In this document: positions 40,876-62,251 of the stretch, one piece after another
Numbering within the stretch: position 1 is the stretch's first letter
Layout: every line of letters starts with the position of its first letter
Assembly: GCA_945876285.1 (NCBI GenBank)
Contig: CAMCNO010000002.1
Location: 62,001-126,000, forward strand
DNA length: 64,000 nt
Direction of reading: 5' to 3'
From: an uncultured Clostridia bacterium
Lineage (GTDB): Bacteria; Bacillota; Clostridia; Oscillospirales; Oscillospiraceae
Made by a program: the position numbers and the translations under genes
The notes under the pieces: model-generated
Databases searched by the model: none
The model's input: only the letters and a program-made list of their open reading frames with translations
What the model was told of the DNA's origin: nothing

Positions 40876-40961
40876 GCGGCTGTGCTGGAACTGGTAGACA
40901 GGCCAGCTTGAGGTGCTGGTGTCGTATCGACGTGTGGGTTCAAGTCCCGTCAGCCGCACCA
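40876..40961 (+). tRNA. tRNA-Leu (anticodon GAG)
   Basis: The 86-base gene has acceptor GCGGCTG/CAGCCGC, long variable arm, anticodon loop TTGAGGT giving GAG (codons CUC/CUU), and an encoded CCA. It heads the three-gene leucine cluster. Confidence 0.97.
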
Positions 40962-40990
40962 TTTACCTTCTTTGTTCCCATCTATCATGC

Positions 40991-41078
40991 GCGCGAGTGG
41001 TGGAATTGGCAGACTCGCTAGATTCAGGTTCTAGTGTCCTTTACGGACGTGCGGGTTCAAGTCCCGCCTCGCGCACCA
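40991..41078 (+). tRNA. tRNA-Leu (anticodon CAG), copy 1
   Basis: The 88-base gene has acceptor GCGCGAG/CTCGCGC, long variable arm, anticodon loop TTCAGGT giving CAG (codon CUG), canonical TTCAAGT T-loop and encoded CCA. CUG is by far the dominant Leu codon in this genome segment, which fits a duplicated gene. Confidence 0.97.
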
Positions 41079-41141
41079 TAATCCCTTTGGAATTTGCGTT
41101 CCAGAGGGGTCCCCACAGGGGTTTGAATTTCATATTGATAC

Positions 41142-41229
41142 GCGCGAGTGGTGGAATTGGCAGACTCGCTAGATTCAGGTTCTAGTGTCCTTTACGGACG
41201 TGCGGGTTCAAGTCCCGCCTCGCGCACCA
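41142..41229 (+). tRNA. tRNA-Leu (anticodon CAG), copy 2
   Basis: Identical over all 88 bases to the copy at 40991-41078, separated by a 63-base spacer. The spacer can form a stem (CCCTTTGGAA with TTCCAGAGGG, one G-U pair) that may guide processing. Confidence 0.97.
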
Positions 41230-44976: not shown

Positions 44977-46260
44977 ATGAGCAACTATCGCCCGGAAACC
45001 ATCTGCGTACAGGGCGGGTATACCCCCGGCAACGGTGAGCCCCGGCAAATTCCCATCGTCCAGTCCACCACCTTTAAATACGCCACCAGCGAGGACATGG
45101 GCAAGCTGTTCGACCTGGAGGCCAGCGGCTATTTCTACTCCCGCCTCCAGAATCCCACCTGCGACTATGTGGCCGCCAAGATCTGCGCCCTGGAGGGCGG
45201 CACTGCGGCCATGCTGACCTCCTCCGGCCAGGCGGCCAACTTCTTCGCCCTGTTCAACATCGCCTCCTGCGGTGACCACATCGTGGCCTCCTCCAGCATT
45301 TACGGCGGCACCTTCAACCTCATCTCCGTCACCATGGCGAAGATGGGCGTGGAGACCACTTTCGTGGCGCCGGACTGCTCTGAGGAGGAGCTGAACGATG
45401 CCTTCCGTCCCAACACCAAGTGCGTGTTTGGCGAGACCATCGCCAACCCCGCTCTGACGGTGCTGGACATTGAGAAGTTCGCCCGGGCCGCCCACAGCCA
45501 CGGCGTGCCCCTCATCGTGGACAACACCTTCGCCACCCCCGTGGGCTGCCGGCCCTTTGCGTGGGGTGCCGACATTGTCACTCACTCCACCACCAAGTAC
45601 ATGGACGGCCACGGCGCTGCCGTGGGCGGCGCCATCGTGGACTCCGGCAAGTTCGACTGGATGGCCCACGCGGACAAGTTCCCCGGCCTCTGCACCCCCG
45701 ACGACAGCTACCACGGCATCACCTACGCCGAGAAGTTCGGCAAGGAGGGCGCGTTCATCACGAAATGCACCGCCCAGCTCATGCGGGACTTTGGCTCCAC
45801 CCCCTCCCCCCAGAGCGCCTTCTACCTGAATCTGGGGCTGGAAAGCCTCCACGTCCGCATGGCCCGCCACTGTGAGAACGGTCAGGCCGTGGCGGAGTTC
45901 CTGGCCTCCCACCCCAAGGTGGAGGTCGTCCACTACTGCGGCCTGCCCAGGGACCCCTATCATGAGGTGGCCAAAAAGTACCTCCCCAACGGCTCCTGCG
46001 GCGTGGTGTCCTTTGAGCTCAAGGGCGGCCGTCCCGCCGCCGAGGTTTTCATGAAGCACTTGAAGCTGGCAGCCATCGAGACCCATGTGGCCGACGCCCG
46101 GACCTGCTGCCTGAACCCTGCCACCTCCACCCACCGCCAGATGACCGAGGAACAGCTCAAGGCCGCCGGCGTCCCCGCCGGGCTGGTCCGTATGAGCTGC
46201 GGCCTGGAGAGCAAGGAGGACCTCATCGAGGATATTGCCCAAGCACTGGAGGCTATCTGA
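44977..46260 (+). CDS. metY: O-acetylhomoserine sulfhydrylase (Cys/Met PLP enzyme)
   Basis: The 427-residue enzyme makes homocysteine from O-acetylhomoserine and sulfide. It has S-R-L-Q-N-P-T, the G-T-A-A-M-L-T-S-S-G-Q-A-A segment, the T-F-A-T-P motif and the PLP lysine in H-S-T-T-K-Y-M-D-G-H-G. Length and C-terminal region fit MetY better than the shorter cystathionine enzymes, although cystathionine gamma-synthase activity cannot be excluded. It is followed by metA, matching the direct sulfhydrylation route. The last codons lie inside a strong inverted repeat. Confidence 0.9.
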   Translation: MSNYRPETICVQGGYTPGNGEPRQIPIVQSTTFKYATSEDMGKLFDLEASGYFYSRLQNPTCDYVAAKICALEGGTAAMLTSSGQAANFFALFNIASCGDHIVASSSIYGGTFNLISVTMAKMGVETTFVAPDCSEEELNDAFRPNTKCVFGETIANPALTVLDIEKFARAAHSHGVPLIVDNTFATPVGCRPFAWGADIVTHSTTKYMDGHGAAVGGAIVDSGKFDWMAHADKFPGLCTPDDSYHGITYAEKFGKEGAFITKCTAQLMRDFGSTPSPQSAFYLNLGLESLHVRMARHCENGQAVAEFLASHPKVEVVHYCGLPRDPYHEVAKKYLPNGSCGVVSFELKGGRPAAEVFMKHLKLAAIETHVADARTCCLNPATSTHRQMTEEQLKAAGVPAGLVRMSCGLESKEDLIEDIAQALEAI

Positions 46261-46403
46261 TGTGAAATCTCACATCAGATAGCCAATGATGCCCATCCGC
46301 TCGCCGTTTACACGTCAACTGCGGATGATGGCAAAAATCCCCCATTTCTCCGGGGGGAGCATCATTCATTTCTATTGATACCGTTTGCACGGCGAAATGG
46401 AGG
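46251..46403 (+). promoter_or_regulatory. Candidate structured RNA in the metY-metA gap
   Basis: A perfect 15-bp hairpin (46251-46265 with 46270-46284) overlaps the metY stop. Next, an 8-bp stem (46285-46292 with 46359-46366) encloses two hairpins: CATCCGC/GCGGATG (46294-46300, 46321-46327) with a 20-base loop, and CCCCC/GGGGG (46339-46343, 46352-46356). Seven bases of that loop (TCGCCGT, 46301-46307) are perfectly complementary to ACGGCGA at 46389-46395, four bases before the GGAGG ribosome site of metA (46399-46403). A pseudoknot there could gate translation. I do not recognise a known riboswitch. Confidence 0.55.
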
Positions 46404-46414
46404 ATTTTTAAGCC

Positions 46415-47353
46415 ATGCCTATCAAGATTCCCAACCAACTGCCCGCCACGGAGACGCTGTCCCGGGAGAACATCTTCGTCATGACGGAGACCCGCGCCAT
46501 CACCCAGGACATCCGCCCCCTGCAAATTTTGCTGCTGAACCTGATGCCCACCAAGGTGGACACCGAGACCCAGTTGGCCCGGGTGCTGGGCAACACGCCC
46601 CTCCAGATCGAGCTGGAGCTCATTGCCCCGTCGGACCATGTGTCCAAGAACACCTCTCAGGCCCACATGCTGGCCTTTTACAAGTCCTTTTCCGAGGTGA
46701 AGGACCGCACCTTCGACGGCCTCGTCATCACCGGCGCGCCGGTGGAGCTGATGGACTTTGAGGAGGTGGACTACTGGCCGGAGCTGTGCGAGATCATGGA
46801 GTGGAGCAAGACCCACGTCCACTCCACCCTGCACATCTGCTGGGGCGCTCAGGCGGGGCTGTACTACCACTACGGCATTCCCAAGCGGGTGCTGGATCAC
46901 AAGCTGTTCGGCGTGTTTCAGCATACGGTGGAGGATCCCAACTACATCCTCTTCCGCGGCTTTGACGACACCTTCTGGGTCCCCCACTCCCGGAATACCA
47001 CCGTGGACCGGGCCGATATTGAGGCCGTGCCGGAATTGAAGGTTTTAGCCGCCTCCCCGGAGGCTGGCGTCTATGCCGTCAAGACCGACCAGGGCCGTCA
47101 GGTATTCCTGATGGGCCACGCGGAGTACGACCGGGACACCCTGCGCAAGGAATATATGCGGGACCTGGCCGCCGGGGTGGACATCCAGATTCCCCAGCAC
47201 TACTTCCCCGGCGACGACCCCAGCAAGCGGCCCGTGATGAATTGGCGGAGCTGCGCCCACCTGCTGTACGCCAACTGGCTGAACTACTGCGTGTACCAGA
47301 CCTCTCCCTACGACATCCGGGATATCGAAAAGGGCGTCCGCACCGACGACTGA
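46415..47353 (+). CDS. metA: Homoserine O-acetyltransferase (MetA family)
   Basis: The 312-residue enzyme acylates homoserine to start methionine synthesis. The nucleophile is Cys142 in H-I-C-W-G-A-Q, with the glutamate/histidine region M-G-H-A-E-Y-D. Residue 111 is Glu in T-G-A-P-V-E-L-M; in characterised MetA proteins Glu111 selects acetyl-CoA and Gly111 succinyl-CoA, so O-acetylhomoserine is the expected product. This agrees with the upstream metY. GGAGG lies 11 bases before ATG 46415. Confidence 0.96.
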   Translation: MPIKIPNQLPATETLSRENIFVMTETRAITQDIRPLQILLLNLMPTKVDTETQLARVLGNTPLQIELELIAPSDHVSKNTSQAHMLAFYKSFSEVKDRTFDGLVITGAPVELMDFEEVDYWPELCEIMEWSKTHVHSTLHICWGAQAGLYYHYGIPKRVLDHKLFGVFQHTVEDPNYILFRGFDDTFWVPHSRNTTVDRADIEAVPELKVLAASPEAGVYAVKTDQGRQVFLMGHAEYDRDTLRKEYMRDLAAGVDIQIPQHYFPGDDPSKRPVMNWRSCAHLLYANWLNYCVYQTSPYDIRDIEKGVRTDD

Positions 47354-62043: not shown

Positions 62044-62068
62044 AAATACAAAGAAACGGAAAACTACA

Positions 62069-62217
62069 TACGTCCGGTAGGTAAGGCTACCACAAGGATA
62101 CGGGTTGCTGCCGCGAAGTGATGGAGACATCACAAGATGGTTTGAACAGGCGATATCGAACACGAAGGTATCATCTAACGCAACTACACTGCCTTGTGAT
62201 GCTAAAGCTTGAACGGT
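62069..62217 (+). promoter_or_regulatory. M-box (ykoK) magnesium riboswitch
   Basis: The leader of mgtE shows the M-box landmarks in order: GGTAGGTAAGGCTACC, GGATACGGGTTGCTGCC, ACAGG, CGAACACGAAGGTATCATC, GCAACTACACTGCCTTGTGATG and GCTAAAGCTTGAACG. This is the Mg2+-sensing aptamer that, when Mg2+ is high, lets the terminator form. A GGAAAACGGC/GCCGTTTTCC stem (62220-62241) lies between aptamer and terminator. Confidence 0.9.
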
Positions 62218-62251
62218 CGGGAAAACGGCGCGCCGTTTTCCGGCAAGGAAG

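Follow-up and report, generated by a model that had tools for sequence, protein, structure and literature searches.

A dispersed hairpin element of Oscillospiraceae at the metA start codon, with a probable RNA switch over the ribosome-binding site

Main finding

Comparison with related loci shows that the gap between a metY-like and a metA-like gene of an uncultured Clostridia bacterium (Oscillospiraceae) is one copy of an inserted element of ~150 nt, and that this element brings its own Shine-Dalgarno (SD) sequence to metA. The gap lies in a 64,000 nt stretch of contig CAMCNO010000002.1, called the window in this work, whose numbering is used for all coordinates. It is probable that a mobile-like hairpin element of Oscillospiraceae landed here at the metA start codon and installed an RNA switch able to mask the ribosome-binding site (RBS). 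The element is apparently undescribed and stands before dozens of unrelated genes in gut Oscillospiraceae; a search of an open-access library, mostly through titles and abstract openings, returned no description recognised as such an element. The parts of the window copy are given in Table 1, and genomes and loci used for comparison carry G and L numbers, respectively.

Empty and occupied sites place the insertion at the metA start codon, with an SD supplied by the element. In the mRNA the C-rich strand 46333-46348 can pair either with this SD (helix P4, predicted to turn translation off) or with a local partner (hairpin P2, SD free). According to the proposed mechanism P2 would form first in transcription, admitting ribosomes, with P4 as the more stable masked state, and the balance of the two may set or regulate metA translation apart from the metY ribosomes. 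The hairpin P1 could be the part recognised by whatever spreads the element, and the downstream genes would not be selected by function.

Table 1. Features of the metY-metA region in the window
Feature	Position	Strand	Basis and remarks
metY-like gene	44977..46260	+	Open reading frame (ORF); name as in the original prediction
P0 hairpin	46251..46284	+	Arms 46251-46265 / 46270-46284, 15 bp, perfect
Inserted stretch	46261..46414	+	Missing at element-free metA loci; borders +/- few bases
P1, conserved core hairpin common to all sub-types	46291..46332	+	Covariation in alignment A4
P1 helices	46291-46293/46330-46332; 46294-46300/46321-46327; inner P1c 46303-46307/46312-46316		One mismatch in P1c of the window copy
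Anti-SD strand, used by P4 (with 46394-46409) and by P2	46333..46348	+	Fold, inverted repeats, covariation
P2, competing local hairpin	46339..46357	+	46339-46343 with G residues of 46352-46357; energy control
P3 hairpin, between both P4 strands	46381..46392	+	Helix 6 of A4, 92% of cells paired
Element-borne SD region, P4 3' strand	46394..46409	+	Core GGAGG 46399-46403; not at element-free loci
metA-like gene (homoserine O-acyltransferase)	46415..47353	+	ORF; plasmid homologues annotated metA

Occupied and empty sites at metA

A metA match was present in 59 other genomes of the same genus, of which 30 loci were read (L004-L006, L113-L139). The full element was found at one of them, L004, whose protein is 98% identical; two more (L005, L115) carry apparent remnants, consisting of a P0-like stretch and an SD, and the element is absent from the remaining 27. 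At L113 (98%) the metY end '...GGAGGAAATCTGAT' directly abuts the metA ATG. The window has the element after the native '...GGAGGCTATCTGATG', which places the start codon of metA ~150 nt further on, behind the new SD. The native metY end was deduced from the element-free loci L113, L114, L129 and L132. The last codons of the metY-like gene (GAG GCT ATC TGA) lie within and adjoining the left arm of P0, which is thus largely the native metY end, and the right arm is an inverted copy of that arm. In the genome of the window itself the model search detected only this one copy. Plasmid matches obtained by BLAST with the window region begin at or beside the metA gene, none of them inside the element, and the search of phages gave no match.

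Copy number and distribution

BLASTN of the insert against 400 genomes of the family matched 77 genomes at E <=0.1, and ten places in eight genomes reached E 2.1e-4. Only these eight, which include other genera and six genomes that are neither the window genome nor its sibling, were taken further. A covariance model made from 11 copies found 105 places in them at E 0.01, namely at least 84 in G072, 9 in G367, 4 in G210, 3 in G155, 2 in G005 and 1 each in G000, G421 and G073. The figure for G072 (genome size 2.3 Mb) is a lower bound, since 150 candidates were scored, and the 105 places include at least 11 of a -10-like, non-RBS type in G072 and several matches to P1 only. Under stricter filters and with all sub-types included, 22 of the 86 genomes of the window genus matched at E 1e-6; a separate search of genus g73 gave matches in 4 of 5 genomes.

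A pattern for the P1 core, which misses the window's own variant copy, matched in 143 of 300 family genomes; its reversed control gave 0-5 matches per genome in many genomes, so that single matches mean little and high counts alone were used. Ten family genomes have at least 10 matches (reversed control 0-3 in these ten): G093 (90), G371 (37), G072 (32), G029 (29), G361 (18), G058 (17), G184 (14), G249 (11), G120 (10) and G181 (10). In a sample of the phylum 103 of 398 genomes matched and, among the matches listed, few outside the family could form the hairpin, as judged by eye. Tandem copies are present at L170, L204, L212, L222, L231 and L237. From these comparisons the element has the properties of a small dispersed repeat, being multi-copy, shorter than 200 bp and represented by occupied and empty sites in relatives.

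Position at translation starts and downstream genes

After exclusion of one hit on the reverse strand, 104 of the 105 copies were examined for their position. An SD-like tail is present in 83, and in 70 of these an ORF starts within 14 nt (65 ATG, 5 GTG), whereas this holds for 4030 of 20000 positions drawn at random from these loci. The other 13 SD-tailed copies have no nearby ORF start under the 14-nt rule. Among the 55 copies with a recognisable P0, an SD-like word occurs in the 15 nt before P0 in 34 (some of them tandem copies, where the upstream SD belongs to the preceding copy), as compared to 7/55 and 10/49 in control windows further upstream. These words just before P0 indicate that P0 begins about at the site of the original start codon.

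Pfam domains were searched in 40 of the 70 candidate downstream proteins of the other copies, five of which had no match. The families recovered include an AraC-type regulator, HIT, threonyl-tRNA synthetase, CoA transferase, Cu/Zn superoxide dismutase, dihydroorotate dehydrogenase, Mur ligase, a ribosome GTPase, PfkB, DegV, gyrase B, UvrD, RapZ, triosephosphate isomerase, a glycine transporter (two orthologue-like cases), ABC proteins and others. One pyridoxal phosphate enzyme could be cysteine synthase and nothing else hints at sulfur metabolism. The 40 scanned proteins come from unrelated families, without the association to one single pathway by which metabolite riboswitches are recognised.

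Conserved fold of the element

Minimum-energy folding of 46251-46420 gave a z score of -7.1 relative to shuffled sequences, with a contribution of the perfect P0 hairpin. In the minimum-energy fold 46333-46348 (AAAAATCCCCCATTTC) pairs with 46394-46409 (GAAATGGAGGATTTTT) and covers the metA SD; both strands are parts of a 20-nt repeat pair (46333-46352/46390-46409, 90% complementary) unreported in the original prediction, which had proposed a pseudoknotted regulatory RNA at this place.

Copies were compared in an alignment (A4) of 79 rows. Besides the window it contains 78 of the 104 copies, the rest being excluded as members of the -10 family (11), as matches to P1 only (six), as partial (eight) or as the duplicate of the window's own copy. 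Since 65 of the 79 rows are paralogues of G072 in two main subfamilies, the covariation counts given here are inflated and do not represent independent events. P1, P4 and P3 together are paired in 94.9% of cells; 17 of 28 pairs have changed on both sides (8.1 +/- 1.3 when shuffled, 8-10 when slid), and covariation is 0.253 against 0.104 in shuffled and up to 0.071 in slid controls. P1 is the most conserved part, with 97.3% and 95.5% of cells paired and two-sided changes in 9 of its 14 counted pairs. On the set of 11 copies, 9 of 29 pairs of the family fold changed on both sides as compared to 5.2 after shuffling. A structured RNA with the anatomy of translational control, as had been predicted, is real and conserved in the 79 copies.

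When the 3' domain was folded to minimum energy, the anti-SD strand was the partner of the SD in 72 of the 79 copies; in 5 the SD had another partner and in 2 it was free. Freeing the SD costs a median of 9.8 kcal/mol over the 79 copies; with P4 so stable, the gene should be off most of the time unless kinetics or some factor intervenes. If the SD is constrained to stay unpaired, its anti-SD strand folds with the neighbouring P2 arm instead. In 46 of the 79 copies this SD-free state exceeds 95% of the shuffles of the middle segment in stability; the other 33 fall short of this level. In L270 and in the L231 copy at 939 P4 is kept and P2 is, by eye, seemingly lost. The logic of P4 is preserved with differing SD sequences in L171 (GACCTTCCTGCGC/GCGCAGGAAGGTC), L409 (AAGAACCTCCTTGCGC/GCGCAAGGAGGTTCTT) and L345 (TTATGACCATGCCTTTT/GAAAGGCATGGTCATAA) and also in L283, L299 and L408; P2 is visible by eye in L171, L283, L299 and L408. 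The element also precedes glycine-transporter genes in two species (L212 in G072, L270 in G367), where the two strands of P4 differ in concert, AATCC/GGATT versus AAGCC/GGCTT. Across copies, P4 is supported by covariation and P2 by the energy control, and by comparison the element would offer two alternative helices over the SD in a riboswitch-like manner.

The flank-matching hairpin P0

The left arm of P0 is host sequence, in the window the end of metY. A second case is the junction, in G371, of two genes which we take to be hpt and ftsH, where the left arm is made of the last codons and the stop of the upstream gene. Sixteen of 18 searched genomes of that genus were readable at this junction: the complete element occurs in G371 only and a remnant in G477, the genes are joined minus the element in 12, and in two none was seen in the stretch read, with the gap partly covered. 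Most matches between different sites within the G371 genus span just ~48 nt, which is the P1 core. A rough automatic rule, which sometimes picks a hairpin other than P0, was applied to 30 copies having a nearby upstream ORF end and a hairpin of at least 8 bp; in 20 of them the left arm shares at least 6 nt with the end of that ORF.

One gene junction, presumably pyrK-pyrD, carries the element in two genera (L144, L408), the downstream gene of L144 being pyrD by Pfam. P0, P1 and P4 are kept there with different sequences; in P0 the left arm is formed by upstream-gene codons (EEIVW and EEILW), and the right arm shows the corresponding differences. A 'start-stop' leader ORF (GTG-TGA) was considered as a functional feature and rejected, the letters in L146 being the last codons of the upstream gene, and those in L144 and L408 likewise upstream codons.

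At the borders of the element no simple direct target-site duplication was seen by eye, and an inverted copy of the left flank is found instead. This copy may arise in the act of insertion, or selection may have retained and improved it. Hairpins that match the host flank, set around an invariant core, suggest a mechanism of insertion or repair for which we recognised no described counterpart.

Other 3' sub-types of the P1 core

The P1 core is also found before hairpins that end in a -10-like TGGTATAAT or near variants (nine copies of G072 by eye, others elsewhere) and before terminator-like hairpins with an A-tract and a T-tract, both readings resting on consensus. The automatic count of sub-types mis-sorts some SD copies as -10-like, as ATTATG resembles TATAAT, and for this reason its hairpin arms were used and its totals were not. 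Taken together, the sub-types suggest a mobile core formed by P1, with the SD domain as just one among several 3' modules.

In L256-L264 (G072), L295, L308 and L342 the 3' hairpin ends in the extended -10-like TGGTATAAT or a near variant, and the element seemingly starts just after a native TATAAT. In L294, L296, L298, L300, L316, L407, L414 and L416 the core is accompanied by a 3' hairpin AAAACTTCATGC..GCATGAAGTTTT which resembles a bidirectional terminator, and several of the terminator-like copies come after gene-end hairpins or T-tracts. One of these, L407, is located in the annotated Vescimonas fastidiosa replicon NZ_AP023416.1, the sole plasmid-search match for this sub-type. A high-copy sub-type of G093 (L329, L333, L337, L353) has the 5' repeat 'CCGCTCGAAAAGTCTTATCC..', and several of its copies are at contig ends, as if breaking assemblies.

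A broader proposal, which we put forward tentatively and regard as possible at best, is that these are tiny mobile elements settling at expression signals (SD, -10, terminators) and restoring the signal in question at their distal end, which would spare the host gene. The inverted copy of the host flank would be made beside the constant ~48-nt core on insertion, templated by the flank, and the SD type would add P2, which would keep the restored SD from being masked for good. The RNA switch proposed at metA would for its part show how a single repeat family can bring the same RBS-masking structure to dozens of genes without a common function, and so offer gut bacteria new translational control in ready-made form.

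The closest competitor of the RNA switch is an inert selfish repeat, whose structure would serve spread at the DNA level only, with SD masking as a tolerated side effect. The unrelated gene set, the many copies, the losses leaving remnants (L005, L115) and the related sub-types at non-RBS sites fit such a repeat, which overlaps our preferred explanation, and the degrees of confidence attached to the readings, overlapping in part, are not meant to be added up. We consider it rather unlikely: the position of the SD is exact, P2 makes sense only in RNA and recurs by eye with other SD sequences (L171, L283, L299, L408), and the matching changes at the old site shared by L144 and L408 are more than a purely selfish repeat needs.

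Relationship to known repeats and riboswitches

The pneumococcal BOX, RUP and SPRITE repeats (PMC3049150) and MITE-like small repeats (PMC2229807) are short, multi-copy, hairpin-forming, intergenic and apparently non-autonomous, BOX being co-transcribed with its neighbours. The present element resembles them in these general traits. It differs from the descriptions in those sources by its exact start-codon positions, its own SD and anti-SD and its flank-matching hairpin; moreover, the pairing of terminal inverted repeats with a transposase which they propose was not found for the element, PF01797 being the one domain searched (PMC3049150, PMC2229807). With the GTAG- or CGTC-tagged REP elements it has in common a palindromic core and many dispersed copies, but in the A4 consensus the base of P1 bears, by eye, neither a GTAG nor a CGTC tag; in the main text of the REP paper 'Firmicutes' and 'Clostridi-' have 0 occurrences (PMC3733652). 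The mobile or repeat motif MRSC-65-2 resembles the element in reaching dozens of copies per genome, but its UYCCGG repeat, as given in its description, was not seen by eye in the P1 consensus (PMC11109978).

The IS200/RAYT domain PF01797 was found in four of ten carrier genomes (G000, G210, G072, G120) and not in the other six (G093, G371, G029, G361, G058, G249), some of which are incomplete assemblies. Mobilisation by IS200/RAYT was consequently rejected as a general answer and, with neither the tags in the A4 consensus nor a RAYT in all ten carriers, the element was not assigned to the REP/RAYT group.

Translational riboswitches possess two exclusive helices with one common strand, anti-SD and anti-anti-SD, which hide or free the SD. 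The element resembles them in having two exclusive helices over the SD with one strand in common, and differs from them in that it has no visible aptamer linked to the switch and no common pathway, and in its varying SD sequences. As the original prediction had noted, the cores of SAM-I, SAM-II, cobalamin and THF riboswitches are not apparent. Covariance models gave no match at Rfam gathering score to the region in the window scan (families including SAM, SAH, cobalamin, THF and T-box), just three sub-threshold matches at E up to 10 in 801 bases around the site (microRNA, snoRNA and lncRNA families) and 0 matches in 15 further loci.

A true riboswitch or protein-binding leader, in which P1 would be an aptamer for a ligand or protein shifting the P2/P4 balance and the regulon would have spread to many genes, appears unlikely to us. 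P1 is indeed the most conserved part, P2/P4 resembles an expression platform, tandem copies exist, and the paired arms show coordinated differences at a junction that two genera have in common (L144, L408). However, P1 has no base in common with P2 or P4, so that there is no obvious route from binding to switch, the same P1 stands before -10-like and terminator-like hairpins, the downstream genes are unrelated and Rfam gave no match.

Pairings of the original prediction

The pairings from which a pseudoknot had been proposed do exist in the sequence. Both the first hairpin and the C5/G5 hairpin are present, as is the perfect 7-base complement 46301-46307/46389-46395, and the 8-bp closing stem 46285-46292/46359-46366 is a 100% inverted repeat, although unused in the minimum-energy fold, a method which cannot predict pseudoknots. 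What had been read as a 20-base loop of the first hairpin holds the conserved inner helix P1c. The sibling L141 has an unchanged pseudoknot and, of the 8 closing-stem pairs, retains 7, two of them as G-U, the remaining one being a mismatch (by eye).

Across homologues the closing stem and the pseudoknot find little support. In A4 the closing stem is paired in 73.6% of cells (37-72% in slid controls), with a covariation of 0.097 (slid 0.045-0.075), a value attained in 3 of 500 shuffles; only 4 of the 79 rows have letters at its two outer pairs. For the pseudoknot the corresponding values are 67.6% (slid 23-67.0%) and 0.127 (slid up to 0.096), matched by 81 of 500 shuffles, and its three central pairs are broken in 49-51 of the 79 copies. 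In cells paired both beat 500/500 letter shuffles, but as a family structure they are barely or no better than slid controls.

A metA-specific, methionine-sensing riboswitch is likewise unsupported, since the element is missing from 27 of the 30 other same-genus metA leaders read and its homologues occur ahead of unrelated genes, the diversity of which makes such a function unlikely. A pseudoknotted metA riboswitch for SAM, methionine or homocysteine is accordingly very improbable, despite its place between metY and metA, the perfect complement in the window and L141 and the success of both stems against letter shuffles, given a pseudoknot that does no better than slid controls in cells paired and is broken at its centre in most copies, a closing stem hardly above those controls, and an element that most of the metA leaders read do not have and that occurs ahead of unrelated genes.

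Other features of the window

An M-box (ykoK leader) magnesium riboswitch is found at 62066-62224 (+), scoring 96 bits against a gathering score of 44. Three consecutive tRNA genes lie at 40876-41226 (+), of which the last two are equal in score and length and may be recent duplicates.
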